Shown in pieces: positions 6,440-63,719 of a stretch of DNA of 64,000 nucleotides. How positions within the stretch are numbered: position 1 is the first letter of the stretch; the number at the start of each line of letters is the position of its first letter. The stretch comes from Fulvia fulva (Eukaryota; Ascomycota; Dothideomycetes; Mycosphaerellales; Mycosphaerellaceae), in NCBI RefSeq assembly GCF_020509005.1, contig NC_063023.1, positions 806,001 to 870,000 of the forward strand, read 5' to 3'. Under the pieces are notes generated by a model. The model did no database searches. It had not been told where the DNA came from and saw only the letters and a program-made list of their open reading frames with translations. Made by a program: the position numbers and the translations under genes.

Positions 6440-7620
6440 AGTAACAACACCTAGGAAAATTCTGTTCTACTAAAAGGAGCAAATCTAGTTACATTAAGAT
6501 AGGTCTTTGATATTAAGAGAAGCATTAGTGGAGCTATTGAAAAGTTCAAGGCTAGACTAGTTATAAGGGGCTTCTTATAGAAGTTTAGTGTTAACTTTAT
6601 AGAGACATTTGTACCTATAGTAAGATAGGACACCCTTAGGGTATTTATAGCTATTATGTGTAAGAAGGATCTTTATCTTCACCAAGTGGATATGAACAAT
6701 GTATTCACAGAAAGCACCCTCTATAAAGACATCTTTATGTTACTACTACTAGAAGTTGAGCTTCTACTAAACATAGTGTTCAAAATCCTTAAAAGCTTAT
6801 ATAGACTTAAGCAAGTAGCTAGAGATTGGAATCAACTCTATGTGTCAAAGCTTAGAGAGATTAGATTTATATAGTTAGAAGTGGATCTATGCCTACTTAT
6901 CTATAAGAAGAGGGAGATTATAATCCTTATATATATAGATGACATTCCAATTGCTATACTAAAGTTAACAGATGTTCTCTAGTTTAAAAGAGAACTTGGC
7001 AAGATCTTTAAGATCAAAGATCTAGGTGAACCTGAAAAGATCCTTAGCATGAGAGTTATAAGGGACAGGAAGAGAGGAATCCTAAAACTTGACTAAGGAC
7101 ACTTTGTTAGGGACAGCCTAGCTAAGATAGGAATGAACTATAAGAAGGCAGCACCTACACACTCACCTATAGACAGCTATAAGGCCCTCAAACCTTCAAG
7201 CCACATAGATAAGAGGTGTAACAAGGCAGAGTACTAGAGTATCAATAGTACTTAGATGTAGTTAGTAATAATCACAAGGCTAGACATTGCTTTTGCCCTA
7301 GGAAGGATGAGCTCATTTGTGAGTGACCTATCCACCTACTACATAAAGGTTTTGAAGAAGATCACTAGGTATCTAAGATCATACCCTGATCTAGGACTTC
7401 AGTTCTTAAAGTCTAGAAAAGGACACCTTATTAGATACTATAATTCTGATTATATAATAGACAAAGTAGATAGAGTCTTAATCCTTAGGTATGTCTTCTT
7501 CCTCTATAGGGCACTAGTTTCTTAGATGAGTAAGAAGCAAAAGTCTGTAGCAACATCTATAATAGAGGCTGAATATATAGCTATAAATATATATACAAAG
7601 CAGTCCTAATTCCTAGCTTT
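6440..7620 (+). pseudogene. Copia-1 reverse transcriptase / RNase H remnant
   Basis: Open pieces at 6656-6874 and 7307-7525 carry recognisable Ty1/Copia RVT_2 sequence: YLHQVDMNNVFTES, then KILKSLYRLKQVARDWNQL. A YVDD-type catalytic box follows near 6931, reading Y-I-D-D. The RNase H end has the signature KKITRYLRSYPDLGLQF and KKQKSVATS near 7530. In-frame TAG/TAA codons and Cys-to-Tyr or His-to-Tyr changes make it non-functional. The enzyme would have copied the element RNA into DNA in cytoplasmic particles. Confidence 0.88.
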
Positions 7621-8248: not shown

Positions 8249-10480
8249 ATAACCGACGTTAGTCTAAGAAGGAAACTCGACTCTATATAGGTAGAGAGGA
8301 TAAGACCTTATAATAGGGCATACGTACGCCGAAGGAGGAATATCTTAGCTACCGCTATACGATACTAATTAACTTTACCTAGAAGGGCGAAGAGGTAGAA
8401 TATAGGCTACGGTATAACCCTACCGAGTTCTAGATTACTATAGCCGAGGAGCTTTCTCGCTCGGTTATTAAGAACCTAGAAGCCTAGCTAGATATCCTAG
8501 ACGAACACCGTCTCGCCTACCTCGGTCTTAAGGAGGTACGGGAGGTATTAACTACTTAGAAGAGTCGGCTATAGGCTAAGGCTAATCGGTATAAGGATAA
8601 GTTAGTATCGCTCTAAGTAATACTCGACGAGCTTAGGGACGATAAGGACTTAGTAGCTAAGATCGCTTACCTAAAGAAGTTAGGTAAGAAGGCGGCCGCT
8701 AAGATTAAGAACTTACGTAGTCGTAATATAGATCTAGCTAGCGAACTTAAAGCGACCTAGACTAAGTTAGCTACTAAGTAGAGCTTAGGTAAGCGTACTA
8801 CCGCGTTTATTACGGATCTATAAGCTTAGCTAAAGGAGCGCGATGACTATATCGCTTAGCTAAAGCCTAAGGAACCGACACCTCTACTACCTCCTACGAG
8901 GTAGAAGTCCGCCCTCGAGAAGCTACTTAACGGCGAGGACTCTAGTATTAAGATAGGTATAACAAAGACTAAGAAGGCTACCTCTACCGTAGCTAGCGAC
9001 AATAACAACACTACGGCAGTCTTAGTTAACGCCGCTATCTAGCGTAGTAACGGCGGTACCTATAACCTAATTAACTCGAGGAAGATTCCTATATTCTTAG
9101 CTAATATACCTAATTATAAGGATGAACTAGAATTTATAGAGTAGAAGGAGCAAGTAGAGGACTACATAACTATAGAAGAGTTATATAGCCGATTATCTAT
9201 AGTATACTTAGTAGTATTTAATAACTTCGTCGTCGGTAATACTAACGCCCGCCTACGGCTATATAAGAAGAAGGTGACCGGTTAGCGTAAGTTAATAACA
9301 GTACTAAACGACTTTTACGGCGAGTACTATAAGCTTAGGAAGCATAAGAAGGCTTATAATAACTATACCTAAGGTAATCGTATATTTAACGTATTTTATA
9401 CTAAGTTCCTAGAGTACGGGTACTACCTAGAGAAGATAGATAAGGAACTTATCGACGATATCTAGGACAAGCTAAACGATAAGTTAAAGTAGGCACTAGT
9501 ATATCGCGACGACTTTGATAACCTCCTAGCCCTTTAGCGATACCTTCGCGATGTCGAACTGAAATTAGACGATATTAAGGGTTCCGGCGGAGGCGGTAGC
9601 GGCCGTAATAATAGTAGCCGTCGCGGTAGTAACGAAGGTAAGCCTAAGTATATCTACTATAACGAGAAGATTCGTAAGGAATATAATCTGAAAGCCGCTA
9701 AGTACGATAGTTATACCTTCCGTAATCTTACTAAGGAAGAAGTAGCTAAGCCTAAGGAGGATATATTCTACTACGTATATAAGGCTATAGACTATAAGGG
9801 TGCCTAGTCGCCTAAGTATCCCTTTAAGAAGTACAAGAAGACTAGTAGCGACGCTAATAACGCTACGAAGAACGTATCGATCTAGGTCGGCGACGTACTA
9901 GTAGAGCTTAAGGCTACCGAGTCGGGGGAAGCCTAGGCTCTAGTCGTATACGTACCGACTAGTAGCCTATACTCGCGCCTAGTACTAATCCTCCGAAGAC
10001 GGTACTACTAGAGCCTCCTAAGGTTACGCCCTTATTATATTACCGTTATAGAGGAAAGAGGAACCCTATATAGTAGGAAATAGTAATTAGTAATATCCCC
10101 GTAATCTTTAGTCCGGAGGTTATACTATATACTATAAAGACGATAGACCTTCCGCTAAGAAGCTCGTATATTATAGTAGTAGGCGTAGCGGGTAGTAAGC
10201 TAGTACGTATACTAATAGATCCCGGTACCGAGTCGCTATTTTGTAATACGAAGTTTACGAAGAAATATCTATTACGAATACCACTGCCTTAGGCTTAGAA
10301 GATAGGCCTAGGAGCTAACCCTAAAGTATCTAGTTAAGCTACGGAATGTGTTAAGACTAAGGTCGACCTAAACAGTTATATCGAGGAAGTTAGTTACTTT
10401 ATTACTAACCTCGACTACGACTTCGTGTTTAGTATACCCTAGTTCTAGAAGTACTACCCTATACTAGAACTATTAAGAGC

Positions 10481-11370
10481 CTAGCCGAGTTCGCGACTCG
10501 TACTATAGTATACCCGGAGATTATTTTTCATATCGTTCGCTAGATATAGTTAGACTTTATTATACTTTTTAACTAGGTTGAGTGCCTAAAGAAGGCTAAT
10601 AAGGTTATATAGCGTAAGTACGCCGATATAAAGAAGGAACGTAACATTGTATCCGAGAGTCTTAGTCAACTCGAAAAGGATAAGAATGTTAAGGGCCTCT
10701 TTTTATTCTACTTTAACAAATACTAGAAGTATAAGAGTTAGATATAAGACCTTAAGGAAGCTAATTAGCGCCTCTTATAGGATAACGATACGCTCTTTAG
10801 ATAGGTCGTAGAGTCGTAGGTAGATATATTACCTAACAATATTAAAGCCCTATCTAAGCGTAATTAGGCTCTAAACAAGGAGGTAGTAGAGCTAAAGGCT
10901 TAGCTAGTAGCTAAGGACACAAACGGTACTAGCGATACTAGCGGTACTAACGGTAATAATAATAATAACTATAGTCGTTAGGTCCGCGTCTACTCCCCTC
11001 GTCGTAACGGTGTTTTACGATCACCTACGCCTCCTACTTAGTAGGACCGTATAGGTAGAGGCACCCGACGAGGAGGTAGTAGAAGTAGTAGCGATAACGA
11101 CGGAGACAACTCTAATAACGATAAGGGTAGAGATAATAGTCGACTACGCTATTACCTACGCCGTAACTCCTTACGACGAGAACGCTAGGGTATACCTAGT
11201 AGTACTTCTAGGGTAACTAGTAATACCGCCGTTAGCTAGTTTACTACTATCGAACCCTCCGTTAATATTATATATACTAATAAGTTAGTTAAGGACCTAG
11301 AAAGTAAGTTTAATAATAAGAATATTAACTTTAACCGTTAGCTCGATTAGCTAGGGATCAAGCTGTCTAT
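10481..11370 (+). mobile_element. gag remnant of a further Gypsy element
   Basis: Reading through stops gives a coiled-coil, Lys/Glu/Gln-rich segment (about 10570-10920) followed by an Asn/Gly/Ser/Arg-rich low-complexity stretch (about 10925-11150). The same architecture is seen in Gypsy-B1 gag at 17700-18130, but the sequence is not the same copy. No LTR, protease or RT is visible. It is truncated by Gypsy-A1 on the left and LINE-2 copy E on the right. Confidence 0.55.
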
Positions 11371-14300
11371 AATATAGATAGATATTTTATTAAGCTGTTG
11401 TAGTGCCCTTTGGCCTATATAGCTATACTATCTTGTTTTCGTATATATAGAGGGGAAACCGTATTAGTGAAAACCCCTCCTCCTTCCCGCCTGTCTTTTC
11501 CTCCTAGTTGTTGTCTTAATTTTCCCTTATTAGGGGTACGCTAGTGTTATAGGCCTGCCCTAATAACTACCCTATCTGCTACCCTCTAGCTTCCGCCTCT
11601 TGTCTATCCACTCCTCCGTCTCGCTAGCGAGGCTAAACTACTAGAGGTATCCCTACTATAGTATCTACTAAGAGATTCGGCGAATGTTACCTTTGTCCCT
11701 AATGATTGACTTATAGTCTCTCCTTCCCGCTTAGTACCTCTAATTTCCCCTACCTCTCGCCTACTACGGGCATCGTAGTAGTATATGTTCTAGGTTTTAC
11801 GATAGGTAGCTACACTAGTAGGCTAGGCTATAGATGTCTAGTACGCGTCTTCTAAATAGGTAGGCCCTTAACCTAATGTGTTCGGACCTAATTTGGATCG
11901 CTATGCTTACCTCGGCCCTTGTCAGGTCCCTATATAGCTAGTAATTGTGTCTCTAGAAGGCTCGGAGCGCTATCGGGCCTATTGTCTTAGGGGGCTTCTT
12001 TTTCTAGTCCTACTCCTATAGGTAGCTCGCTATCTATTCCGCTAGGCTTTAGGTATTAGCCTTGCTCCCGCCGGCCTAGCGAGTCCTACGCTCCTCCTCT
12101 TTTCGTACTAGCCATTCGGTGCTTGTCTATATAGCCGTAAAGGTAGTAAGGTCATCCTCTTTTTGGCTTGTCCTATGTCCGGCCCCTCTCCGGTAGTGGC
12201 TTTCTATCTTATTCTTTGCCTCCTAGATCGTAGTTTATACTAGGTAACCTGTCGTCCTTGCCGCGTATTAAATTCTTATTCCCCGGATATACTAGCCGAT
12301 TAGTAGTGTTCCTATCTCTATTTCTACCGTGCTTATTAACGTTGTCTTATATACGCCTAGTACCCTACGTAGGTTACCTACCTATATCCTATTTAGGGGT
12401 TGCTCTATCCGTTTCGGGATCGGCTTACCTACGCCTCCTATTCCCTAAATCTGTGCCCCGTATAGCATAGCTCGTCTAACGATCGCCTTATATATTACTC
12501 TTGCCTTGTCGAATGTTGCTCCCTATATAGATGCCGTAAGCCTCTTTATCGAGGCTTCGTTAACTTATACTCGACTCTAGGCTTTCTTAACCTATACATT
12601 CTAGCTTAGCTTCGGGTCGAGCTAGATCCCTAGTACTCGTAGCTCCGCTAATAGCTTTGTCTCGTAGCCTTAGATTCTTACCGCCGCCTTTATATTATAG
12701 TGTGTTCTCGCTTTACTAAAGTGTATAAGTTAGTACTTTTTAGGGGCGAACTAGGTACTATACTTCTTTGCCCACTCCTCGTATTTCTTATACCTATCTT
12801 CGAGGAGGCGACAGTTCTCTTCTGTCGAGTCTAACTAGGCTAGGATGTTTATATCGTCTACGAACCCCGATACTAAGGTTTGCGGAGAGGTGAGTAGGGG
12901 GATTAGATTAGACATAAATATTAGAAACAGGATAGGGGAGAGAGTAGATCCCTAAGGTATTCTAGTCTCTACCTTTACCGGGTCGGACGTATACCTTCCT
13001 AGGACTAGGTATGTCGTCCGTTCCTAGAGAAAGGAGTAGACGAACGTCGTTACCTACTAGGGGATGCCTTTCTGCTATAGGATATGTATTAGCCTTTAGT
13101 ATAAGACGTTATTGAAGGCTCCTACGATGTCGAGGGATAGTAAGGACGCCGCTCGGTTCCTACCGTAGTACTAGAGGGTCTGAATTTGCTCCGTAATTAG
13201 CTCTATTACTATTAGTATCGATCGCTAGCTTCTTCCCCCTATCTATGTTACTAGGAGTACGTAGTTGTCCTCGGCTAGCTACGTAAGTCTCTAGGCTACT
13301 ATCTTTTCTAGGACCTTCCCTATCGTGTTTAGAAGTACGATTAGTCTATACGATTCAGGCTAAGTATAGTCCTCCTTCTATAGCTTACGTAGTACTACTA
13401 TTATAGACTCTCTATACGGCTTCGGGTAATACCCTAGCCGTAGGTACGCGGTAAATAGGTTAGTAAGGCTCGGCGCGATCTCTTCTCTATACTCTTTTAG
13501 TAGTATATTTGGTATCCTATCTAGGCCTAGGGCTTTTTGTCCTTTTAGCTTACTTATGACTCCTATTACTATATTAGAGCTAACCGCCTAATCTATGTCT
13601 AGGGGTTCCGGGTATATGCTCGGGTTAATATCCGTAAGGTCTACCTCTACTTACGTCGAAAAGAAATGGTCGGCTAATACTTTTGCCTTGCCCCGGGGCG
13701 TAGCCTAGGCAATCCCTTCGCGGTCTACGATTAGGGGGAAGTAAGGGGTTTGCTACTCTTTAGGTAGTCGTGCCTATTTAGTAAGTCTCTATATCTGTTC
13801 CGGGTTTTCTATAACGAGCCCGATCGTCGCTCTCTAGTCCTATAGCTTATCGCGTCTTATCTATGCCTTCTTCTCTTATGTCGCGCGACAGTATTGCTCC
13901 TACGTCTCTTAGGTGTGCTCCTTCGTCTACTGTCGCCTTGCCCTTCTAGCCTCCCTTACCTTCGTAGAGCATTTAGGGGTCTAGAAGGCCTTCTACTACG
14001 TTAAGGGCCGGAGTAACGGCGTAGATTGTTCCGCTACTTACTATATAACCGAGGTAATCTGTTCCGCTACTTGATCTAGCTAAGCTGTCGTCTCGAGTTC
14101 TCTATGCTATAGTAGGTTCGCTATTAGGAAGCCTCTTATGTCGTCCTAGCGTGCCTTCTTCTAGTTACGGCGTAGTTCGCTTACTAGCTCCTCTATCGCC
14201 TTTACCCCTAGCGTCGTTTAGATAGGGATATAGTCTAAGGAGGCTTCTAGCGCGTAGTTCGGTTGGCATTAGACTAGTCTCTCTTTAAGTTCTCGTAATA

Positions 14301-16406
14301 GAAAGTATAGGTCGATCGTACTTATACTTAAACGGGCCTTCTACGTCTCTATTCCCTTTAGTATTACTAAGGCCATTCCGTAGCGTACGGTTATATCTAG
14401 TAGCCTTTCCCCTAGAAACGCGTACGGGGGAGTGAATTCGAGTCCCTACCGTAGGTAGTAGAGGTTAAAGTCGCCGAGGAGTACTTGCTTTATGTCTTAG
14501 CTTAGGGTCCGCTCTAGGTAGGCGAGGGTTCCTAGTTCCCTACTCGTCCGACCCCGCGGTAGCGGGTTATAAACGTTATAGATCTAGATAGGGCCTTATG
14601 TCGTGTCGATCTAGATTAATGTTATGTCTCCTAGGTTGCCCTACTACGGTAGTATAACCTTCTACGACTCAAGGTCTATAGTCTTGCTTACGTATATATA
14701 TGTCCTCGGGATAACGCCTCGTTAGCCCGCGATTACGGTATAGTATCTCCGGTCATTATAAGTGGCTAGGAGTCCTTCGTAGGGGTTGATCTATAGTTCC
14801 TATACCGCGATAACGTAGTGCCGTAGCGGGTCTAGCTCTTATAGAAAGTGGCGCTAGACCTTGTCCCTACTTTTGTTTACGTTATACTATACGATAGTAA
14901 TGTCGTCGTATAGTATTATTCGTTATCCGTAAGGTCTATTTCCGTACTAACCTACTATGTCTCCTAAGCCTATATCTCGCTATCCGGCTAGCCCTAGGGC
15001 CGCTAGGGCGCCCTAAAGATTCGTATTTAGCCTAGTTCGTTAGCGGCCCGGTTAAGGTGTCGAGGCCTACCGGGAGGTAGATACGTTTACGGTTAGGTTC
15101 CCTTATTCGTCTCTTCTACCCTCTTCCTTTTACTCGATTCGGAGCCCTTATATACGGTAGGTCCCTCCTACTGCCGTTAGGGGTACCTAGCTAGTATAGA
15201 AATCCTTACTTGTCTCGCTCGTTCTTATACTACTATTCTAGTTAGGCATTAGCTTAAATACGCTAGGTACCTTCTACCGTAGTATATACACCTACTCTCC
15301 TTTTTTAGGCATTCCCTTCCCTAGTATAGGCCTACGTAGTAAGGACACCTTAGGGTCTTCTCCCCGTATTTTAGGGTTATATAACCGTACTATTAGCATT
15401 AGAAGCATTATAGTACCCTATAGCTACTCTAATAGATCTCCGTGTCCATTCTCTCGTAGTTCTAGAATAGCCTATTATCTAGTATCTAGTTAGCTTGTTT
15501 TGCTGTCTCTACCTAGATAATAAGCGATAAGTATATCTTTTCTCGGTCTACTGTCTTATATAGCTATGCCGCCTTCGTTAGTCGTACTCCTAGGGAGGTG
15601 TTCTAGTTCTATACTTAGAGGTAGGGAAGGTCTTCGACCTTGAATATCCTAGGGACCCCGTAGGCGATAACGGTATACTATTAGTAGGAGACTCGTACCG
15701 ACTTCGCGACTTTAGTAGTCTACTCCTTATAGGTCTCTAGCTTTTGTCTATTAGACTCTTATATAGTAAAGAGTCTTACTACGCCTATTGCCTCTACCCT
15801 CGCTCTAACTACCTCCTTTTGGCCGATTCTGTCGACAATCTCCTTGCTTATTAGGGCTACGATTTCTTGTTTTTCCGCCGGATTAGTAATATATAGGCGT
15901 ACCGCCTTGCTTGCCTTCGGAGGGGGTTAATTCTTACCTACTACTACTATTGCCTATATAGTTAGTCTCTAGGCTACTTTCTGTGTTGCTTATTAGATTG
16001 TTTTCGGGATTTAGTGTAATAGCGCTTTTAGCGCTCCTAGTAGCTATACTATAGTGTTCTTATATATCCGGGCTAGGTGTTCGCTATCCCCTAGCAAGTC
16101 TTCCGCCTCCGTATATAGGGTCGTCTACGCTATATTGTTTGTCGTTAGCCTCTACTTTCTATATAGTAGGCCTTAGCTTATGTCCTAGGTTTTTCCTTAG
16201 TCTATTCCCCGGTTTGACTCTTAGTATAGAGTGTTCCTAAGGCTATAGCTCTCGTTAGTTACTATCCTTCGCTACTATTCGGGGTCGCGCTTCCTAATTA
16301 GGCAGTTGTCCTCCGTAACTCCGTAACTCTAGGGTCTACCTTTAGGGGAACGGAACCTTAGTTTTAGGGTTCTTTATACCACGATTACGCCGCCGCTAGC
16401 GTAGGC
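11371..16406 (-). mobile_element. LINE-2 copy E (Tad-like non-LTR retrotransposon)
   Basis: This is an approximately 5.0 kb minus-strand element. Its 3' end lies on the left with a short ATAG-type tail near 11375-11385. Reverse-strand reading shows an RT with the catalytic FVDD box at about 12853-12869, an AP-like endonuclease region at about 14200-14950, and an ORF1 with CCHC knuckle remnants near 15390. The 5' end (GCCTGCGCTGGCGG-type) at 16406 is shared with the fragment ending at 56374. The ORF1 start there is ATG, but here it reads ATA, a RIP-type change. No target duplication was found, so the flanks may be rearranged. Confidence 0.82.
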
Positions 16407-16410
16407 CTCC

Positions 16411-16732
16411 GGCAATATAATAATAAAGAAGTGTTCGACGTACGAAAAGTACGGGCGCGTATATAAGGTATATATTCGTTCCGGGAAATATAGCGAGTAC
16501 CTTCGTCGCGGTTAGAGATACGACGTAAAGGTAACTTAGTCGGAGTTTAAGACGTTAGCGGAGGAGAAGGTCCGTCTCCGCGAAAAGATCTAGGAGTCTC
16601 GGTCCGCGTAGGACGAAGCTATACGGGTATAGAAAGAAGCTACGCGGGTATACGAGAAGGCTCTATATCCGTAATATAGTTCTAGACTATCGAGGATAGA
16701 CTACGCTATATCCTTAACTACCTCGACGGGTA
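16411..16732 (+). pseudogene. Decayed Zn2Cys6-type zinc cluster plus coiled coil
   Basis: In one frame from 16432 there is a Cys codon and five Tyr codons (16441, 16462, 16489, 16498, 16519). If each Tyr was Cys before TG-to-TA change, the spacing is C-x2-C-x6-C-x8-C-x2-C-x6-C, exactly the fungal Zn2Cys6 (GAL4-type) pattern. It is rich in Arg/Lys. A predicted coiled coil follows (SEFKTLAEEKVRLREKI). Stops in the segment are TAG or TAA of RIP type. It lies between the LINE-2 5' end and the Gypsy-B1 insertion, just upstream of Gypsy-C gag, which continues at 23964 in another frame. It could be the N-terminus of an element protein or a captured host transcription-factor piece. Confidence 0.5.
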
Positions 16733-16737
16733 CCCGT

Positions 16738-16921
16738 TGTTACGGGTAGCCCGCGACCCCTCACTATAGCTACGTCGGCCCGGCTGAACCGCGGACCTTC
16801 TATATCGGGTTAGCGCGGCTTGGCTTTGCTTTATAACTTCGCCGCGCCTTGCGCTCCTCTTTCGTAGCTTCGTAGAACAATAACTATCTCATTCGGACCC
16901 TATAGTACGCGCGCCCTTATA
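16738..16921 (+). repeat. 5' LTR of Gypsy-B1
   Basis: The LTR is 184 bp, TGTTACGGG to CGCCCTTATA. It differs from the 3' LTR at nine positions, all transitions. Confidence 0.95.
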
Positions 16922-17149
16922 GTTTGTTCTACCTTACTACCTAGATCGCGGATCTAGGTAAGGGACGCGTAACAATAGGAATAGACAGAACCGTAGAACT
17001 CGAGAACGCGTAGAGCCGTATTAGAACATAGAATACGGTAAGGCGTATAGCGCGTAGATGCCTAGAGAACGTAACGCGGCGACACTATTAGTAGGTAGTC
17101 GCGCGCTCGTAGACAGTCAGGATATAGGCACCGTCACGCCTCCCCCGAA

Positions 17150-19140
17150 CCTAGATAACATAACTTTATAAATAGCGAACGGCGGCATACTACCGCTACC
17201 TAAGCCTAAGGGTAAAAGCAAGTAGCGTATATCTCTTTTCCCCGACCTCTCCTCTTTTCCTTAGAGTTAGACATAGGACGATAACCGGCGGGTTATAGTA
17301 GACACCGGTATCGCGCTATAACAAGAGATTGATAAAGCTTACTAGAAGGCCTTCGAGCGAGAAGAAGGTAGTAAGATTGACTTTATAGAACTGTTCGAGT
17401 TCAAGCTCGAAGAGAACCTAGGCGGCGACCTAGACGAGGTATATCTATTACTCGACGAGGCAGAACACATTCTCGCATCCGAATACTAGAATGTTACCCT
17501 AGACAACCTTACGACCCTTACATCCTAATACCCGAAGACTACCTACGACTTCGTGCTATAAGTAGTTAACACGGCAATTACTAAGGGCAGACAACTCGAT
17601 GTAATAGAGCGAGCTAACGACCTCTAGAACACCTAGTATACTACGCTATACACCGAATACGACCGCATCTACAAGATGCTACGAAGTGAAGAGCTTGTTA
17701 TATAGAAAATAGTAGCAGATCTTAAGAGTAAGAAGGATTACGACCTAGCTAAGTTATAAGAGCTAGGGAAGAAATATAAGGAAGCTAATAACCTATATAA
17801 GCAGTTTAGCGAGATCTACGAGAAGGAGAAGAAGAAGGCATAAGATGCTAAGGCGAAGAACTAGGCCCTATAACAAGAAGTCGATAACCTAAAGGCTCGG
17901 CTTAAGGCAGGAGACACTATATAGAACGGAGGCAGGGGCCGCTTAGGCCGCCGACCCTCTCGTTCCCGCCTACGCGAGACCTTACTCGAGCAGCTATTAC
18001 GTAGGTATCGCGAAGCTGCTAGTGGAGGGGGCGGTGGCGGTAGTAGTAATAACGATAACGATAGAGACGACGATAACCGTAGCGATAATAGCCGAGGACG
18101 TAATAACGACCGTCCGCGACTAGGACCTAACAATAGTCGTGACTCGAGAATGCGTAATACCCGTACCTAGACACTACTAGTTGACCTTCTAGAACGTCTC
18201 TTTACTATTAACCGCACCCTTACTCGCGGTATAGAGATCGGTAAGGGTGTGCCCGACCCTAAGCACTTTAAGAACGATGACGACCCTAATTTCGATAGCT
18301 AGTATAGTAGTGTTCTCCTAAAGCTAACTATAGTAACCTTCCGTACTAAGGCAGATAGTCTACGCTTCGTATATAGGTAGACATAAGGTGATCCTTAGCG
18401 AAGCATTAAGCCGAGGATCCCTATGCCTAGACAGCAGTCCTTTAACGAGTTCAAGACTAGAGAAGAGTTATTAGACTAGATAATACGCTAATATAGTATA
18501 CGTAATAAGGGAACTAAGGCTATAGTTAACATTGCTACCTATAAGCAAGAATAAGGCGAAACCTTTATAGCCTTCTATACCCGCTACTCGAAGTTGCGCG
18601 CCTAGATATTATAGACCGATAAGACCGAGCTTATACTATTCCGTAACCGACTGAACCGTAAGTACTTCATTAAGACCTTCGGCGACCGCGAAGTCGACCG
18701 CCGCCTAGATAGTATATAAGACGTTATCGAGGAGTATACCGTACTAGACGAGAGTTTCTACGAGACAGATCGACTATACCCGTAGAAGGAGCGCCCCCGG
18801 GGCAATAGCAACTCGAATAGCAATAGCGGCTAGAACAACTAGAACAACGGTAACGTAGTTACTAGTGCCGCTACCGGTGTAGTAGGTGCCTTAGTATAGC
18901 GCCTACTATAGTACGCTAGTACTAAGAAGAAGGAGGATCTGCCGACACATCTATAGAACCTACCTACGCTTAACCGTAAGTAGCGCGAAGACCTTAAGAA
19001 GTAGGGTAAGTGCTACCGCTACCGTATAGGTTCTTACGTATCGACTAACCCTAAATGCCTAATATATAGGTACGATAGCGACTATCGCCTACCGCGTCTA
19101 CGTAATACCACGCCGAATCCGAACGCGAACCTCAGTTCCC
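17150..19140 (+). pseudogene. Gypsy-B1 gag remnant
   Basis: One frame can be read for nearly 2 kb if TAG/TAA are taken as altered Gln codons. In order it shows an acidic N-terminal part, a Lys/Glu-rich coiled coil (about 17700-17900), a Gly run followed by an Asn/Asp/Arg-rich stretch (about 18020-18130), a capsid-like region (about 18160-18790), and a CCHC knuckle near 19011-19062. In the knuckle one Cys and the His are now Tyr (CYRYRIGSYVSTNPKC). Gag would form the virus-like particle and bind element RNA. The loss of zinc ligands and the stops rule out function. Confidence 0.8.
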
Positions 19141-19459
19141 TAGCCGCCGATCCGCGGTAGGGAAATGGCACGACCGCTGCCTAAGCGTAGTAGATAGCGG
19201 TCACCCGAACTTCCTAGGACAGAAAGAGCATAAGATTGAGAGACACGGAACGCAAGAGACGGTAATAGACTATAGTGAGGAGCTTAAGATATCGGCATAC
19301 GTACTAGATAAGTAATAGCTAGCTATGTACCCTTATATAGTGTTACCCGTAATGATATAATAGAGAAAGGCTCGAGGCCTTATAGATTCTACTTCTACCT
19401 CTCTCTTTCTTGACTAGAAATTTATACGCAAATACACAATACCCCTGATCCTTTTGACG

Positions 19460-22400
19460 TAAAGCCGACGACTAACACTAGGAGATAGAACGGCCACTAC
19501 GTAGCAGATTATATACGCGGCCCCTATAGACGTAGTTATAGGCGATCATTACGAGCAAATGTTATACTACGTCACCGACCTCGAATACGACATCGTCTTT
19601 AGCCTGCCGTAGCTTATAGCGCACAACCTAAACATCTTCTAGGAGATAGGCGAGGTGGCATTTAGGTCGGATTACTGCTTTGGTCACTGTCTATAGAATA
19701 AGACACCGACAACAGTACAATCCCTAAACTACCGCGAGAAGAAGAAGTAGGCACTAGTACGGTACGGACTAGAGCCCTTTACTAGAGATGTAGCGAGCTT
19801 CATAGTAGGAGGGGCAGAGCTGAATGTCTTATTATATGACCTAGAAGACATAGACGATGAAGAAGTGGACTACTAGGGCGTTTCTTAACGCGCGTAGGGG
19901 ATGTACGCGCACCGGCCTAGGGCTAAGTGCTTCTATATTATGCCTACTAGGCGTAAGAGCGACGGCGGAGAGCTTAAGCTAAGTGTAATAGCTGCTAATG
20001 ATCTAGACCAATTCTTGAACAAGCAGTTCAATCACAACCCGAAGAAGAAGTTGCCGCTAATATACTACGATATTACGGACGCTTTCTTAGCTAAGGATCA
20101 TAAAGGACTCCTACCTTACCGACTAGGCGTAGATCATGAGATTCACATTAAGCCTAATGGTCTATAAGAGCTACTATACCGCAAGCCCTACGGCCTAGCT
20201 AAGAAGGAGAACGAGGCAGTTAAGAAATGGCTAGACGAGTAAACATCTAAAGGGAAGGTACGGAAAGTAGGGCAAAAGACGAACTAGTCTCCTATACTAG
20301 TGCTAGTAGTACGTAAGCCTAGAGGTAGGCTACGTGTTTGTATCGACTACAGAGGATTGAATGCGATCACTATCAAGAACCGGTATCCGATTCCCTTGAT
20401 ATAAGAGACGCTTAACCGTATATACGGTAAGAAGTACTTTATAAAGCTAGACATTATAGCAGCCTTTAACAAGTTACGGATAGCTAAAGGGTACGAGTAG
20501 TTGATAGCGTTTACGACACGATACGGTATCTACGAGTGTCTAGTGTTGCCATTCGGCTTGTATAACGGACTAGCATCGTTCTAATTATACATTAACAAGG
20601 TCTTATAAGAACACCTAGACGACTTTGTGTCGGCCTACCTAGATGACGTACTTATCTTTAGTGACACCTTAGAGGAGCATATTAAACACGTACGGAAGGT
20701 TCTCACTAAGCTACGCGATGTAGGACTTATAGTAGACATCGATAAAAGCGAATTCTACTAATAGAAGGTGAAGTATCTTAGGCTAATCATAACCCCTAAC
20801 GGTATTAGATAGACCCCGAGAAACTCGAATGTATTCAGACATAGGAAGCTCCTAAGAACCTAAAGGATGTCTAGGCCTTCCTTAGATTTGCCAACTTCTA
20901 TAGGCGATTCATCGAAGCATTTTCGCGTATAGCTGCTCCTCTTACAAACCTGACCAAGTCGGACGGACTAAGCAATCACAAGAACAGAAGGATTTAATAG
21001 TCACTAGATTACTAACGAGCCTTTGACAATTTGAAAGCTGCGTTCAGTAAAGCTAGCATACTCGTACATTACGTACTAGGTAGGGAAACAGTAATAGAGA
21101 CAGATTCTTCAGATTTTGTAAACGCCGGCGTACTTTCGTAGTATAACGAGAATAGTATGCTACATCCTATAGCCTTCTACTCGAAGAAGTTGAGTCTATA
21201 GGAGTGCAATTATAAAATCTATAATAAGGAACTGTTAGCTATTATTAAGGCTTTTGAGGAATAGAGACCCGAGCTCGCCTACGAGGCAGATAATAAGGAC
21301 TTATAGCTAGTTAAGATTTATACCGACTATAAGAACCTAGAATACTTTATGACGACAAAGCAGCTAAATCGGCGACAAGCGCGTTAGGCTAAGTTCTTGT
21401 TACAGTTCAACTTCAAGATAATATACCGTCTAGGACTTTAAGGTACAAAGCTAGACAGCCTAACGAGACGTAGCTAGGACCTTCCGTAGGGGGTAGACGA
21501 CCCTCGGAACTAGCATTAGTATTAGACATTGCTGCCTCCTAAGCGATTCCTTAAGATCGCCTTACTATAGGCAACAGTAGAAGATCCGCCGGAAGAAGAG
21601 GAACCAGTACTACTAAACCCTAAAGCTAAAGAGTTTATGCCTATAGAACGAGATGCGCCTACTAAACAACCGGCGACGCGTGAAAGTTAGCGGGAAGCCG
21701 AACTCGAGTATCGAATGTCGACGGCGTACGTAACCGATAACGAGCTTAAGACCGCGATTAAGGACCTATAGAAAGACCGTACTCCTACACTGCTATAGAG
21801 AGCGAAGATTCACCTAGTACACTACAAAGTAGATAGCGACCTGCTATATGTTCGAAACTAATACGACGGCTAGAGCTTATAGGTACCAAATGACCAAGCT
21901 TTATAGACTAGGATAATCAAGATAAACTATAACGCTCTAGTAGTAGGCCATCTAGGACGAGCTCGTACTTATGAACTCGTAGTACGTGAATTCTACTGGC
22001 CTAGATTAGCGAGATCCGTACGTAGATACACCGCGAATTGCCGCACCTACCGTACAACAAAATCTCTACACTCCTAGCCACTAGGATTACTATAGCCACT
22101 TCCTATTCTAGATCGGCCTTAGAAACACATTGTAGTCGACTTCGTTGTCGGACTCCTAGATAGCACTCTTAACGGTATAGTCTATAACAACATTATAACC
22201 GTTACTAATAGGCTTACTAAGGAAGTCGAGCTGATCCCTATTAGCGTAATAACAGTACAGAATACGGCAAGGCTTTTCCTTAAATATATGTTCTATCGGC
22301 GCGGGTTTCCTAACACTATTACATTAGACCGTAGCAAGTAGTAGGTTACTACCTTCTAGAAGAAACTCTATAAGATGCTCCGTACAAATCGTAAGCTAAG

Positions 22401-23580
22401 TTCTTCGTATTACCTAGAAACTGATAGATAGTTAGAACGTACTAACTAGGCGATAGAACAGTATCTCCGTATATTTACTAACGAGGCATAGGATAACTAG
22501 GCAGAATGGCTATGCCTTGCTCAGTTCGCGATCAACAATCACCTGTCTAAGACTACTAGTGTGTTACCGTTCTACGCTACCTTAGGATACAACCCTAAGT
22601 TTATAGAGCGAGTTGACCTAAACGCTAGAAAGGAGGGAGGACTGACCACTCTCTAGCGACTAGACGCGCGATCAGCAGAAACCTTTATACGTCGAATTTG
22701 CGAGCTTTATAAACACCTTTAAGAGAATATACGAATGTTATAAGCTCTCTAAGTAGAGGTAGCAAACCGCTACCGAAGCATTCCTCTAGACTATAAGGTA
22801 GGTAATTAGGTGTATCTTAGTACTAAGAACATCCGTACGACTCGACTATCTAAGAAGCTAGACAGGAGATATACCGGCCCTTACTAGATCACGGAAGTTA
22901 TACCGGCTAGACTCTCTTATCGACTGAAACTATTAGACGCTCTAGTAGGACTTAATAACTACTTCTATACCTCACTACTATAACGAGCCGACCACCCCGA
23001 TTTCCTACTACTTGAAGGGCAGCATCTAGCGCCGCTACTACCGATAACTATCGAACCTAACACTACCGAGGCTAATATAGTAGCCGATATAGTAGTAGCA
23101 CCTACGTATATATACGAGGTGGAAAAGATCCTTAACATATACACCCGTAAGCGGGTAGGCAAGGTGAAGAAGGGGCATAAGCGCAAAGTAGATACATAGT
23201 ACAAGGTGAAATGGGCTAGATATCAGAACGAGGAGGATAGTGAGACCTAGTAACCTATAGAGGACATACTTAAACACGTAGCCGCCGCTATTATAGACTT
23301 TCACTATAACCGGCCGGAGTTGTCTACGCCTAAAGGCTTCGTAGCTCTATCTGACTGGTCCCTACTAGCTACTAAGATACTCGGGCTCAACTCGATCAGG
23401 GTCATTCCGAAAGACACCGTTACGAATGAGTCGCCTCGAGCCTTACCTCTAATAGAATCTGCTCCGCACATATTCGATACTCGAGTGGAGCCTATAGAGC
23501 CTATAATAATACCTAACTTTGGTCATAAGGATTATACGCGAGTACGAGCCGAAGACAGACTTAGATCTAGGGCAAGCTAG
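19460..23580 (+). pseudogene. Gypsy-B1 pol remnant with chromodomain
   Basis: Retropepsin-like sequence lies near 19470-19640. The RT has [15 protein letters not shown] near 20325 and the catalytic [10 protein letters not shown] near 20632-20661. RNase H runs about 21060-21420 (NKELLAIIKAFEEWRPEL). The integrase runs about 21950-22720, with a changed HPQTDGQ motif and then TNQAIEQYLRIF. A chromodomain lies at about 23112-23310 (YEVEKILNI, then YKVKWARYQNEEDSE). Chromodomains of this class guide integration to H3K9-methylated heterochromatin. Remaining open stretches such as 19901-20167 and 23320-23580 are islands between RIP stops. Confidence 0.9.
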
Positions 23581-23774
23581 CTAACTAGGCAACATGTTTC
23601 TCGAAGGAAGCCGGTCGAGGATAGTCTTAATAGAGCGAATGCGATGTTATCGGATGACGACAGGGCACTAGAGGATAATTCGGCGTTCGCGCGATTATAG
23701 AGCTCGACAGGCAAGTGGCCTTATAAGGTGAATAACGCTTAGAGGACTGAGGCGTATTTTGGGAGGGGGGGTAC

Positions 23775-23958
23775 TATCACGGGCAGCCCGCGACCCCTTA
23801 CTATAGCTACGTCGGCCCGGCTGAACCGCGGACCTTCTACATCGGGTTAGCGCGGCTTAGCTTTGCTTTATAACTTCGCCGCGCCTCGCGCTCCTCTTTC
23901 GTAGCTTCGTAGAACAACAACTATCTTATTCGGACCCTATAGTACGCGCGCCCTTATA
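23775..23958 (+). repeat. 3' LTR of Gypsy-B1
   Basis: The LTR is 184 bp, starts TATCACGGG after GGGAGGGGGGG, and is followed by target duplication CCCGT. Confidence 0.95.
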
Positions 23959-57900: not shown

Positions 57901-58046
57901 TTATATCTACCTCTATCTTCCTTTGTTCCAACTACAATCACACCCTCTACACACACTGTCCACCGCACTTCTATCGCCTCAATAAGCGTACTGTAGTACG
58001 TACCTATACAACCCTCACCTCCAACACCAACCACAGCCTTCAAACA
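57890..58046 (+). promoter_or_regulatory. Pyrimidine-rich leader of the Stf2-like gene
   Basis: A CT-rich, A-tolerant, G-poor stretch (57895-57990 and 58010-58040) precedes the first splice donor. It is typical of core promoters and 5' leaders of filamentous fungi. The transcription start itself cannot be placed. Confidence 0.45.
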
Positions 58047-58728
58047 GTAAGTACCACCTCAGCCGCTCAATGCCTGTTGTTTGGTGCACCTCCTGAAGGT
58101 CCAATTGAGTCACAGCCACCACGAAATGGCTCTCAAACAGCTTCAATCGCAACTTCACCTGCTAACGGCACCTCACAGTGACTCGCACTCACAAGGGCAA
58201 CGACCGTGACCACGTCGGCCTCGCCAATGGCACCGCAGCCCCAGAGGAGCACCTCCCACGCTACTTCGCCAAGTCAGGCTACGACGGCATCGCCCCAACC
58301 GCCATCAAGAAGCAAGGCAGCGGCAAAGGCAACTGGTAAGCCATCACTTCCACCACCTGCCACCCCATTCACCTCCACCTCCAACACCTCACCCACAACG
58401 TCATACCCCATCACCCCTCCACCCTTCCATTCCAGTCCACGTATCTAACATCCCTCCCACCACCAGGGGCCAAGCCGGCATCTCCGAGCTGGAGGACTAC
58501 GACTTCACCATGAGCCGACCCAAGCGCCGCAGCAACAGCTCCTCCGCGGCCGCCGGCCACTCAGCCCTCAAGACCAAGTTCGAAGACTTGGACGCCGACG
58601 CCATCGTCGAGTACGACGAGGACTTGCACGGTCCTACCGACGACGACAAGTTGGAGAAGATGAGCACGTCCAGCTCCGCTGATACTATGGCTAGTGTTGA
58701 GGAGGAAGATGTTAAGGAGCACAAGTAG
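58046..58728 (+). CDS. STF2: Stf2-like small hydrophilic protein (139 aa, three exons)
   Basis: Introns 58047-58178 (GTAAGT to CACAG, branch GCTAAC at 58161) and 58336-58466 (GTAAGC to CCAG, branch TCTAAC at 58443) give coding parts 58046, 58179-58335 and 58467-58728: 420 nt, stop TAG. The protein begins MTRTHKGN, has RYFAKSGYDG (residues 28-37) and IKKQGSGKGNWG (43-54), then an acidic Ser-rich tail. Yeast Stf2 shares MTRT at the N-terminus and KKQGSGKGNWG. Yeast Stf2 stabilises the inhibited F1Fo-ATP synthase and acts as a desiccation-protective hydrophilin; that role here is inferred. The A of the start codon is the last base before intron 1. Without that intron there is no ATG in this frame before exon 3. 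Function by homology: fairly sure; start: likely. Confidence 0.8.
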
Positions 58729-59224
58729 TGTGCAGACCTTTCGGGACATGCTTCTTTTGGGGGATTGAGGGATCGAGCGGCCTAAGCCTGATGGATGCCG
58801 TGATGTATGATGATGGTGTTACTACTGGCTTCTTTTGCTGCTGGAGATGTGGAGTGTACTGATGGGAGAAGCGATGGTGTTTCTTTCTTGCTGGCAAGGA
58901 TAACGAACAGAAGGCGTCGAGAAACTGTAACACTCGATCAATGATGATGACAATGGCACTGTAACAGATAGCAAGCAGACAATGCAAGTGACTTGACTGC
59001 AGTACATTGTTCTGCTTCACCTTAGCGTCACACTCCTTACCTCGAAGTTCATGTTACCGACAGTATTCATGGGAATTGTGAACAGTGTCGTAGCAACCAA
59101 AAGCTTTCATTCCATTGAGCTACTCATTTCATTCATCTCTTCATGTCATGAGCCGGTGCCATCAAGCCACACTGGGAAGGCGCACCTCGTCTCCATCCAC
59201 TCTTTCAATCCCTATCAAGCACAT
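58729..59224. other. Intergenic, 3' ends of two convergent genes
   Basis: About 500 bp separate the stops of the Stf2-like gene and the dehydrogenase. It presumably contains both 3' UTRs. The short frames in it lack coding character. Confidence 0.6.
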
Positions 59225-60173
59225 CTAACCATTAACAATAGCACCACCATTGGCGTGTATTGTCTGTCCACTCAACTGCGAGCTATCCGTGCTAGCCAAG
59301 AACACCACACACGTAGCAATCTCCGACGGCTGACCGGGACGTCCCATTGGGCTGGTGAACTGCTTGATGGCCTCATCGTTCATGGTCGCTGGGATCAAGG
59401 GTGTCCAGACGGGACCTGGAGCCACGGCGTTGACGCGAATGCCCTTGTGGACGAATTGGTTCGAGAGGCCGCGGGTGAAGGCTACGATGGCGCCTTTGGT
59501 GGAGGTGTAGTCGAGCAGGTCGGGACGGCCGATGTAGGCGTTGATGGAGGCGTTGTTGATGATTGTGTCGCCTTGGTTCATGTGCGGGAGGACGTATTTG
59601 GAGAGGTAGAAGAATGCTGAGGTAATGTTAACTGGGTACATCCAGAGGAGGGGATGTGTGGAACTTACGGTGGATGTTGGTGTTGAAGGTGTGCTCCCAC
59701 TGCTCCTCAGTCAAATCGTGAATGTTGTTGGTCATCATCTGGTATGCGTGGTTGTTGAACAGAATGTTGATGGCACCCATCTTCTCAAGAGCCTCCTCCT
59801 GGACCTTCTTGCAGTTCTTCTTGTCCTTGAGATCGGTCGCGTGCAGGTAGCACTTGCGGCCATACTTCTCCACGAGCTTCTTCGTCTCTTGTGCGTCCTT
59901 CTCCTCTTCAGGCAGGTAGGCGATGAAGCTGTCTGCACCCTCCATGGCGAAGAGGACGGCCGTGGCACGACCAATGCCTGAGTCTCCACCAGTGATCAAG
60001 GCCTTCTTGTCCTTGAGCTTGCCGGCGGCTTGGTAGAGCTTGTAGCCGCCTTCTGGTGTTGGGACGTATTCAGTCGATGGTGCTGGGGTCATGTCAGACT
60101 GCAGACCAGGGACTTTCTGGTGCTGCACGTCGGGCTGGAAGCCTGACTCGAACTGCTTCTTGTCCGAAGACAT
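59225..60173 (-). CDS. Short-chain dehydrogenase/reductase (298 aa, one intron)
   Basis: Exon 1 is 60173-59669 and exon 2 is 59616-59225. The 52 bp intron 59617-59668 has GTAAGT, a TTAAC branch-like site and CTCAG. The join turns NIH into NIHPFFYLSK, matching the family. NAD(P)-binding TGGDSGIGRA is at residues 61-70, NNHA (usually NNAG or NNAA) at 140-143, catalytic Ser192, Tyr205 and Lys209 (YTSTK), and VNAVAPGPVWTPL follows. The 50-residue N-terminal extension and overall sequence fit the glucose/ribitol dehydrogenase-like subgroup (bacterial YghA type), oxidising an alcohol or sugar or reducing a carbonyl with NAD(P)H in the cytosol. The substrate is unknown. Start context CCAACATG is good. 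It diverges from the formyltransferase gene. Confidence 0.93.
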
Positions 60174-60693
60174 GTTGGCGGCAGTGGGGGTAGGTTGTGA
60201 TGTGTTTCGGGTGGGCTGGTGTCAGTATGTGAAGACCAGTCAATGAAGAGGCTGCGGTAAGTGAAGAATGAAGCAAGACGTGTGAGGTCAACGTGTTGGA
60301 GATTTTGTATGCCTTCTGAGAGTTTCTGTTGGCATGATGTCACAATTACCTGCGCATCACACCTCGCCATCATTATCGGTGGAGCCATCGTTTCGCTGGC
60401 TTATGCCTCTGCATGTTCCACGACGATAGAGTGATGCAGTGTCGATGTATGATGTATCGAGGTGGGATGCGGGAGGCAGAAGCTGAGTGCAAAAGTCAGT
60501 TGAGTGTTCCAGTTGTTGGCGCGCTTGGAGCATGGCGCGAACGATGCTTTCGAACGCAAAACACCAACGACATTCTATACCAGACTTCTCCAGTACACTG
60601 GCATTGCTCCCCCATCAGACAATCGCTCGCCTGTCGTTCCAAGCTCGTCTAGCCATCACGATGATCGCCTGAAGAGTCTATACCGCAATAATC
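60174..60693. promoter_or_regulatory. Shared divergent promoter interval
   Basis: This 520 bp lies between the dehydrogenase start (minus) and the formyltransferase start (plus). The dehydrogenase side has a CA/CT-rich leader just before its ATG. No specific operator was recognised. Overlapping short frames here are not supported as genes. Confidence 0.5.
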
Positions 60694-61918
60694 ATGTTTG
60701 GCGTACGTCTTCTTCGGCGGAGCGGACCTACAGCACCGTCAACATGGTGCAGATCATTCACATGTAACCATAAACGATTAGCACAGCAGCACAAACCTCT
60801 GAGCGTCCTCTTCTGCGGCGCAGATCAATTCAGTGCTGCCTCACTCCAGGAAGTGTACTCTCTCCAGCAAAAAGACCCATCAAAGATTGCCAGTATCGAT
60901 GTCGTCTGCCGACCTGACAAGAAAGTCGGCAGAGGGCTCAAACAGACACTGGAAGGTAGGCCCGTCTTACAGCAATGAACCACGATAGGGCAGTTGACAC
61001 TTCCCAGTACCAATCAAATCCTTCGCCACCAACCTGGGCCTCGACATTCACCAGATCGACACCTTCAAAGGATGGAGTCCTCCAAGGCCAATCGATCTGG
61101 TCATAGCTGTATCCTTCGGTCTACTTGTTCCATCTCGGATCTTGAACGGCGCTACATACGGTGGTCTCAACGTGCACCCTTCGCTGCTACCAGACCTTCG
61201 CGGCGCGGCTCCCATTCAGCATGCTCTACTACACAACCGTAGCCATACGGGTGTCAGTCTACAAACAATGCACCCAACCAAGTTCGATCATGGCATGATA
61301 CTCGACCAGACGTCAACTTCTGGAATTCCGATATCAGAGAACGCCACGCCAGAAGAGTTGCTTAAGCAGCTCACGCCACTGGGAGCAGAGATGTTGCGGA
61401 AAGCGCTGGAGGAAGGCTCGTTTATGTCGCCTAGACCCTTGGCGCAGGCCAGCAATACATCTGACGGGCACATCCTCGCGTCAAAGATCACACCGGAGGA
61501 CCGCCATATCGATTGGACTACATGGACCGCAGACAGGATAGTCAGATACGACCGGGTTATTGGAAGACTATGGGACACTACGACATATCAACGTTGCTTT
61601 TTACCGCATGAGAAACCGGGCGTCAAACGTATCACCTTCTATGGTCCATGGGAACGGGTATCGAAGAGTGAAGATTCCAAGCTTGAGCCAGGCGAGCCCG
61701 CTCTCTGCATATCGGCAGATAGCAAACTCAAGAGGTTTGGTGTATGTGCTGCTGATGGTGAGATGGTATTGCCGAGGAGTGCCACAGTCGAGGGCGCGGC
61801 GAAAGGAAAAGGATTGCAGAGCTTGATGCACGCGCTGCAGCTGATTGGTCGGGTGGCTGCTTCGCCCCGAGAATTCAAGAAGAGGTATGTACGTCCTGTT
61901 CGGACGACAGGGGCATGA
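60694..61918 (+). CDS. FMT1: Methionyl-tRNA formyltransferase, mitochondrial (390 aa, one intron)
   Basis: Exon 1 is 60694-60955 and exon 2 is 61008-61918. The 52 bp intron (GTAGG to CCCAG) restores the frame as ...LKQTLE-VPIKSFATNLG. The Arg-rich N-terminus (MFGVRLLRRS) suits mitochondrial import. The Rossmann start LSVLFCGADQFS lies near residue 36. The signature NVHPSLLPDLRGAAPIQ spans residues 142-158, with Asn142 and His144 and, further on, Asp181 (KFDHGMIL), corresponding to the catalytic Asn-His-Asp of the bacterial enzyme. The C-terminal domain follows (RPLAQASNTSDGHILASKI to about 380). It formylates initiator Met-tRNA from 10-formyl-THF for mitochondrial translation. Length is normal for fungi. 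A slightly different N-terminal exon is possible. Confidence 0.92.
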
Positions 61919-62493
61919 GCGACGGGAGATGAAGTGAAGGGTCGGGGCAATCCAGTCTCTGGTCTCACATATGGGACCTTCATACGCATCAACCGATCTC
62001 GTACTATGAACATACCACAGGACGCTGAGAAGGATAAAGTCGAAGCTCAGTGGAGGACGCGTGCACATACTGTGAAGAGCAGATAGCCGCGAACGATTCG
62101 CGATCAACATGCGCTACACCAGAGCTGTCGACAGGCCATCACATGCTCAGATGCAATTCCGCGCAAACACGTTCGAGCTCGAAAGGTACCTTAAGGAGGT
62201 CCTGAAAGGTCACACAAAGATCATCACCCGTGTTGCCTGCTTGCCACAGCTGCATCTATCTACAGCGGAAGAAGTCTTGGCACATGAGCTCGACTAGCTG
62301 CATTCACTAGGCTGCTGCCTGCACACACGTAGCTGGCAAGGGAGAGCTCACATGAGGCAAGTATCAAAGTGAGGCGACCTGCATCCACAAGTGAGCTTTT
62401 CCAGCGATATATCTATTTTCCAGCTTCAGATTTGCCAACTCAATACAACAACCACACAAACCATCGACAACCGCAAGTGATAGCGAGGCCGAT
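61919..62493. other. Intergenic region after FMT1
   Basis: This 575 bp has normal base composition. A 62-codon frame at 62109-62297 (plus) has no recognisable motif. I see no supported gene. Confidence 0.5.
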
Positions 62494-62847
62494 ATGGCAG
62501 AACCACAGGCACATCAAGAGAGTCGTACAGATTAAGAGGTGCAAGCGCCAAAAGAGTTGCAGGATCAGATCGAGGCCCTCATCAAGCCATGGTCTGACAC
62601 CGATAAGAAGCCGCCTTTCAGCATCGCGCAGATGATCGTCATGTGCTTGGTACTCAACAAGCCTGTGGACAAGTTTGGTATCTTGACTTGGCTCACGACT
62701 CGCATTGGCTACCTCAGGCAGTTTGCAGTCAACAGGCTTGGCCGGGATCTCTATTGGGAGAACGCTTGGCACATCGATCAACACAGCGTCCACCAAATGA
62801 GGAGCGAAGTGCGAGAAGCCTTGAAGACTTTGATGTTCCCTTGGTAA
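62494..62847 (+). pseudogene. Upstream coding-like frame of the 2EXR-type gene, broken
   Basis: From ATG at 62494 the frame runs 13 codons to an in-frame TAA at 62533. It then continues open to TAA at 62845 with convincing protein character: KKPPFSIAQMIVMCLVLNKP, then FGILTWLTTRIGYLRQFAVN, faintly like a fork-head/winged-helix segment. It ends just where the downstream frame (one base off) begins to look coding (DFDVPLVIRQ, 62826 on). One extra base between 62823 and 62826 would join both frames. It may be a true lesion, a sequencing error or an unrecognised splice. Confidence 0.45.
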
Positions 62848-63719
62848 TACGACAGGCCCACTTTGAGCAAGAGACTTTCACCGTGCAATCCAATGAGGCG
62901 CGGCTCTACCTTTCACCTATTCTGAGATCTATGGGTCAGGTTTGTCTACGACCATTTCCGTTCATCCGCCTCCCAACGGAGCTGAAGCTACGCATCTACA
63001 CCATGGTGCTGTGTCTGCCAAAGTCTGGCGTGAAAATCCAGTACGCTAGTGCCAGCACGTACACTCTCGGCGTCTGGGATCGAGAGCATTCCGACACCTC
63101 ATCAATCATGAGCAGGCCAAACTACCCACAAATAGCTTATCATCCACCACTCTCTGCCGGTCCACTGTCATCACATCTGGCACTGCTTCTCACCAGCAAG
63201 CAGATCTACCAAGAGGCCATGCCAGTCTTCTACTCGGAGAACAACTTCATCACCGGGCTCGGTCCTTTCGACATCTCGCTCCAGGCTCTGAAACCGCGCT
63301 GTGCCGGCCATATTCGACATATCTCCGTCTACTGGGAACCTCTAGGTACCGCCAAAACCACTGTGGCCTGCTTCACCGCCATGAAGCGCATGCAGAATCT
63401 TCGCGTGGTCGACATCTACTTCGATACCGAGGAATGGAAAGAACTCAAGAAGCCATGCAATGCTGGCAACACTTTTATACCCGAGAAGCTGCCAGGTTTC
63501 GCCAAGCTTCGTGATCTCTACAATACCAGGCAGGTGACAGTCTACGGCGATTGTGATGAGCTACGAAGTGCTTTGGTGGCGGCACAGAAGCAAGCTCGGG
63601 AAATCAAGGAGCAGCGATTGACGAAGCGGAAGGCGACAGCTGCTGGTTCAAGCAAGGGACTGGGTAGTGGGTCGAAGCCGAAGAAGGCCAAGAAAGCTCA
63701 CGCTGCAAGTGATGCTTGA
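62643..63719 (+). CDS. F-box/2EXR-like domain protein, start uncertain
   Basis: The longest open frame is 358 codons, but its first about 60 codons overlap a more protein-like frame and are probably not translated. From about residue 62 it looks real. PFIRLPTELKLRIYTMVL (near residue 105) is the F-box/2EXR-like motif common in expanded fungal families. LALLLTSKQIYQEAMPVFY near 180 is the second half of that signature. The end is a Lys/Arg-rich, Ser/Gly low-complexity tail (KRKATAAGSSKG, KPKKAKKAHA) that may be a nuclear signal. Function is unknown; many such proteins are ubiquitin-ligase adaptors or have no assigned role. The start may be a later ATG or the frame upstream at 62494. Confidence 0.6.
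   Translation: MLGTQQACGQVWYLDLAHDSHWLPQAVCSQQAWPGSLLGERLAHRSTQRPPNEERSARSLEDFDVPLVIRQAHFEQETFTVQSNEARLYLSPILRSMGQVCLRPFPFIRLPTELKLRIYTMVLCLPKSGVKIQYASASTYTLGVWDREHSDTSSIMSRPNYPQIAYHPPLSAGPLSSHLALLLTSKQIYQEAMPVFYSENNFITGLGPFDISLQALKPRCAGHIRHISVYWEPLGTAKTTVACFTAMKRMQNLRVVDIYFDTEEWKELKKPCNAGNTFIPEKLPGFAKLRDLYNTRQVTVYGDCDELRSALVAAQKQAREIKEQRLTKRKATAAGSSKGLGSGSKPKKAKKAHAASDA

Follow-up and report, generated by a model that had tools for sequence, protein, structure and literature searches.

A decayed zinc-cluster fragment beside a LINE in Fulvia fulva and its intact relative, an antisense accessory gene of Ty3/Gypsy elements

Antisense genes of long terminal repeat (LTR) retrotransposons have been described for years without being assigned a function (PMC7264820). 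The closest fungal example is brtn, an antisense open reading frame (ORF) between pol and the 3′ LTR of Boty-like Ty3/Gypsy elements of Botrytis cinerea (Zhao et al. 2011, as cited in PMC7264820, PMC8365987 and PMC4227169), which is also mentioned in PMC5987419. Plant antisense ORFs include gene23 of Grande, whose product is nuclear, and those of RIRE2 and Retand (TRP28) (PMC7264820); the passages of PMC11963269 that deal with such genes give the Retand TRP28 proteins as predicted to bind DNA, and HBZ and APH-2 of human T-cell leukaemia virus (HTLV) as antisense nuclear proteins expressed from the 3′ end. Here we report that a 64,000-nucleotide stretch of the Fulvia fulva genome (the window; positions 806001–870000 of contig 12 in a 67,169,167-base assembly of 14 contigs) contains a decayed scrap of an antisense gene that encodes a zinc-cluster protein, and that several Ty3/Gypsy families in this genome regularly carry the intact gene as an accessory, on the antisense strand in the interval from gag/pol to the 3′ LTR.

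Fungal Gypsy elements with antisense ORFs have thus been described before, and the zinc-cluster form is a new variant. Compared by description only, it shares with brtn the antisense ORF, the fungal Gypsy host element and the position between pol and the 3′ LTR. Position and orientation are common to the plant genes as well, together with nuclear localization (Grande) or predicted DNA binding (Retand), although the domains named in the passages on them are different (TRP28, SMC-like) and a zinc cluster is not among these. The HTLV proteins are likewise antisense, nuclear and of 3′-end origin, but belong to an infectious virus of another group. A search of titles and abstract openings, with most subscription papers outside its coverage, returned no report of an LTR element whose antisense gene encodes a zinc-cluster protein.

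The intact gene is best seen in a 185-residue ORF with a complete six-cysteine cluster, present in five copies in the genome, of which the other four are 99.6–99.96% identical to copy L002 over 2.2 kb. In the element L031 (7070 bp, with identical 374-bp LTRs), this ORF lies opposite a gag of 751 and a pol of 1161 amino acids and has 74 bp in common with the end of pol. Two more gag-pol families, L065 and L066, have the same layout, the pol of the L065 copy being split between two overlapping frames, while L067 and L068 consist of LTRs, gag and the antisense gene without pol; gag and the gene lie together in the 2.2 kb read of L070, and the gene adjoins the end of pol in L071 and L072. In all eight loci read it occupies the interval between gag/pol and the 3′ LTR, the LTR being seen directly in L031 and L065–L068 and recognized by similarity in L070–L072. 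L066 has the LTRs, CCHC gag, pol domains and chromodomain that define a Ty3/Gypsy chromovirus (Retrotrans_gag, 8.2e-17; zf-CCHC; RVP_2; RVT_1, 1.5e-38; RNase H; Integrase_H2C2; Chromo, 3e-14), with an rve match at 3.5e-6 whose 27.6 bits fall under the cut-off of 32.6.

Two protein searches, with 75 and 77 matches, together mark 85 places in the genome, 66 of them free of stops and 19 with stops. At 83 of the 85 the gene is antiparallel to a Ty3/Gypsy gag or pol (47 with pol and 36 with gag downstream); the two without either are the window copy and C8:3172929. Every stop-free pol entry is accompanied by the gene (33/33; 63 pol entries used), the 16 pol entries in which it was not detected all contain stops, and it accompanies 32 of 33 stop-free gag-only entries (37 gag entries used). 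The domain is therefore no one-off capture, as an earlier note on the window had entertained.

The encoded protein, about 130–235 residues long, joins a basic Zn2Cys6-type cluster to a long coiled coil (an 81-residue helix) and an acidic, tryptophan-containing tail. Six cysteines are present in 94 of 96 relatives, with the canonical spacing of GAL4-type Zn2Cys6 domains (PF00172) in several families, and acidic residues outnumber basic ones in the tails of 93 of the 96. All seven PDB matches of a structure model at E values up to 10 are GAL4-type factors, each of them weak. With GAL4-type factors the protein thus shares the cysteine spacing (in several families) and a coiled coil, its model giving a weak fold match to them, and we read cluster, helix and tail as predicted DNA-binding, dimerizing and activating parts. 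HBZ also has a coiled-coil (bZIP) domain; the HTLV antisense proteins are not known to have a zinc cluster.

Two observations on the elements stand apart. The L031 LTR (558–931) contains TTGAACGCC, whose complement GGCGTTCAA lies just inside the other LTR, at about 7224–7253, a pairing that we take to resemble the self-primed reverse transcription of Tf1-type elements. L065 (442–7402) and L066 (432–7414) measure about 6.97 kb with LTRs of about 425 bp, presumably resembling in both respects CfT-1, a Ty3/Gypsy element of Cladosporium fulvum.

In the window the gene is represented by a scrap of about 260 bp within DNA that, over most of positions 1–56000, has been strongly mutated by repeat-induced point mutation (RIP). 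Read in the plus frame from 16411, it gives C-x2-Y-x6-Y-x8-Y-x2-Y-x6-Y, followed by a charged, helix-like stretch with TAG stops that corresponds to the coiled coil of the intact relatives, as the earlier note had proposed. Within window 1–56000 in six frames, the exact spacing with cysteine or tyrosine at the six positions matches once, and not at all in each of 20 dinucleotide shuffles; a looser canonical spacing matches 10 times against a shuffle mean of 0.65 (maximum 3). Two of these ten are the zinc-cluster site, and because the other eight look by eye like tyrosine-rich low-complexity sequence or knuckles of a long interspersed nuclear element (LINE), spacing alone is weak evidence. The decisive result is that two hidden Markov models (HMMs) built from intact relatives match this frame, at E values of 6.4e-23 and 1.3e-27, while nothing else among 324 six-frame pieces reached inclusion with either. 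The decayed cluster at 16432–16521 is real, and the less mutated paralogues by which the earlier note proposed to check it exist in the same genome, with all six cysteines in the same frame; gag, which was to be sought in one ORF with the cluster, is on the opposite strand in the intact copies.

Window 16403–16635 aligns with L031 1078–1311 at 74.8% identity. Among the 60 substitutions that set it apart from an intact paralogue, C>T and G>A account for 32 (22 in TpA context); the other 28 are of other kinds, and the fragment therefore derives from a related family rather than from that of the paralogue. Nor does it belong to the neighbouring element Gypsy-C, of whose gag it had been suggested to form an N-terminal module: Gypsy-C has LTRs of its own, and 74 bp of an older repeat part it from the fragment. 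The feature ends at 16667, short of the 16732 first assigned to it, positions 16668–16732 being older repeat.

Copies of the adjoining LINE were sought with window 15900–16500 as query, and 40 of 369 candidates were scored; the 39 other than the window itself are 95–98% identical, and every match stops at 16406. In all 29 junctions printed the LINE runs on into a common sequence that is absent from the window, where the fragment with the zinc cluster follows directly from 16407. LINE and fragment together are enclosed by a 12-bp duplication whose copies differ by two RIP-type changes, so that a LINE is fused at its 5′ side to foreign sequence within a single target-site duplication. The fragment is antisense to the LINE and has the polarity of chromovirus gag-pol (genomic) RNA. 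The simplest reading is that the window copy probably arose by template switching: the LINE reverse transcriptase would have moved onto a chromovirus RNA and copied a piece of the accessory gene onto the LINE 5′ side, both would have inserted together into the older repeat, and RIP would then have killed the piece. Template switching has been described for LINEs of Magnaporthe, whose chimeric retrogenes are fused transcripts with short direct-repeat flanks, one of them with repeats of 14 bp (Gogvadze et al. 2007, PMC2104539); LINE-driven fusion and short flanking repeats are common to both, whereas the partners are WEIRD and Mg-SINE there and Gypsy-element sequence here.

Rather less likely, the fragment is what remains of a chromovirus that occupied the site earlier than the LINE, or it was added as filler DNA during repair of a junction. 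A second orphan zinc-cluster match, also decayed (L073, G000:C8:3171800–3174300; 3–656 and about 1127–1603), lies near a LINE 5′ end in the same relative orientation as in the window, yet some 470 bp away, so that mere neighbourhood could account for such an association. Against this, the window fragment abuts both the LINE break (16406) and the duplication (16668) without a gap, and the comparison with L031 showed no intact-family LTR next to it.

What the intact gene does may be read from the way it varies. The eight elements fall into three backbones (L065/L066/L071, L067/L068/L070 and L031/L072). In all seven within-backbone pairs, the blastn alignments cover the LTR from the outer end up to and including a TATA-like site (assigned by eye) at 90.7–96.6% and a part of gag or pol at 80.3–95.8%, and in six of them a short polypurine stretch as well; in none does the U3 upstream of the TATA-like site align, and the antisense gene is unaligned but for its last few dozen bases. 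Global identities between L067 and L068 are 96% for R-U5, 31% for U3 (shuffled mean 24%), 67% for the polypurine spacer, 47% for the gene (shuffled mean 31%) and 96% for gag, and the identity profiles of L067/L068 and L065/L066 change in sharp steps. L072 shares its backbone with L031, yet the zinc protein of L072 is closer to the L067 protein (58% identity) than to the L031 protein (30%), and a short part of the L072 U3 matches the L067 U3 in inverted orientation (E 5e-6). Point mutation alone fails to explain this mosaic, which suggests recombination. Each of the eight U3 parts, moreover, holds more repeated 7-mers than nearly all of its shuffles (of 300 shuffles, none reaches the value for six parts, and 1 and 4 do so for the other two); of the R-U5 parts, L066 alone comes close (6/300), the others giving 25 to 295 of 300. 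The motifs vary by family, for example with TGATCA in L031 and L067 and AGGCAC in L066.

These patterns lead us to favour, as the likeliest account and with moderate confidence, a reading in which the window piece is a RIP-killed, template-switched scrap of a gene that, when intact, regulates its own U3 and is exchanged together with it. The gene lies opposite gag-pol and starts just inside the 3′ LTR; as a dimer, its protein would bind to the repeated U3 motifs that precede the sense core promoter, and would control both gag-pol transcription from the 5′ LTR and, from the 3′ LTR, antisense transcription of the gene itself. Its retention in gag-only elements speaks for a part in expression or in the control of expression. 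Since the gene, the polypurine tract and U3 adjoin one another, there is a simple route to joint exchange: a single recombination could swap regulator and target together, and reverse transcription would then copy the new U3 into both LTRs. By analogy only, the immunity regions of lambdoid phages, in which a regulator and its target sites are swapped as one block between related backbones, follow the same scheme. A more speculative extension, which we hold tentatively, is that antisense factor and U3 array form exchangeable specificity cassettes that define regulatory groups and that recombination carries from backbone to backbone, autonomous and gag-only alike.

Several results weigh against the favoured account. 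Similar zinc proteins do not significantly accompany similar U3s (r 0.17, p 0.18): L068 and L072 have proteins 48% identical and unlike U3s, and L031 and L067 have motifs in common with proteins only 26% identical. One stop-free gag-only entry, C9:1164367, has no detected gene. In L069, a copy from a different abundant chromovirus family, the 3.5 kb read contains no such ORF of at least 80 amino acids; the gene is therefore dispensable for Gypsy elements in general. The cluster also scores under the gathering cut-off of Pfam Zn_clus, against which the earlier note had proposed to check it.

The main rival, which we regard as unlikely, keeps the U3 as target and makes the protein a repressor or copy-number controller, similar to a phage repressor, with new cassettes spreading as they escape repression by residents. 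Gene and U3 are strongly diverged beside near-identical gag, as escape from a shared repressor would favour, and the antisense position permits negative feedback; the tail, however, which in 93 of 96 relatives is acidic and nearly devoid of basic residues, resembles an activating tail, and activation is the likelier direction because of it. Less probable again is a nuclear role beyond transcription, for instance in importing or targeting the integration complex, or antisense control at the RNA level with the protein secondary. Such roles have been proposed for plant antisense ORFs (PMC7264820), but they leave unexplained why U3 and the gene change together when R-U5 and pol do not, and the conservation of cluster and tail at the protein level runs counter to a purely RNA role. 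A chance origin of the antisense ORFs, as frames that merely happen to be open across from other coding sequence, we find scarcely credible, even though long opposite-strand frames do occur (for example L031 1211–1768 and L065 6416–6994).

The fragment and its neighbours are placed in Table 1. The older repeat, unbroken in L007 and L008, is split in the window into 10460–11377, 16668–16741 and a part from 23957 on; the first gap (11378–16667) is mostly the minus-sense LINE and the second is Gypsy-C, a separate insertion. A piece of the LINE reverse transcriptase, its stops read as X, gives an RVT_1 match at 4.5e-20, and within the LINE a 322-bp stretch (14967–15288), 92% identical to window 2025–1704 reversed, is a further nested repeat. 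RIP indices at 16001–18000 are 2.11 for TpA/ApT and 0.30 for (CpA+TpG)/(ApC+GpT), compared with 0.57–0.58 and 1.27–1.51 at 58001–64000. This last part, unmutated and of higher GC, contains all five window ORFs of at least 150 amino acids and is ordinary gene-bearing DNA next to the repeat block.

Table 1. Window coordinates of the zinc-cluster fragment and adjoining features
Feature	Position	Strand	Evidence
Decayed zinc cluster, one Cys and five Tyr codons, spacing C-x2-C-x6-C-x8-C-x2-C-x6-C	16432..16521	+	Frame reading; cluster intact in L031
Accessory-gene fragment: end of N-terminal part, zinc cluster, start of coiled coil; truncated at both ends	16407..16667	+	Alignment, junction, duplication
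LINE, 5′ side at 16406, reverse transcriptase readable with stops	11378..16406	-	RVT_1 match; copies end at 16406
Target-site duplication, left copy, 12 bp, two RIP-type differences	11366..11377	.	
Target-site duplication, right copy, 12 bp	16668..16679	.	
Older-repeat piece between zinc-cluster fragment and Gypsy-C	16668..16741	.	Unbroken counterparts L007, L008
Gypsy-C, separate insertion, outside the feature studied	16742..23958	+	180-bp LTRs 16742–16921, 23779–23958

A layout of zinc cluster, coiled coil and acidic tail that is kept without pol, together with a promoter block that changes along with it, makes the function of this antisense gene directly testable. Three small proteins named 'Zn(2)-C6 fungal-type' are among the matches listed, and some small database proteins of that name may come from transposons and not be regulators of the host. 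If the favoured reading is true, these Gypsy elements would carry a regulator and its target sites in a single exchangeable block.
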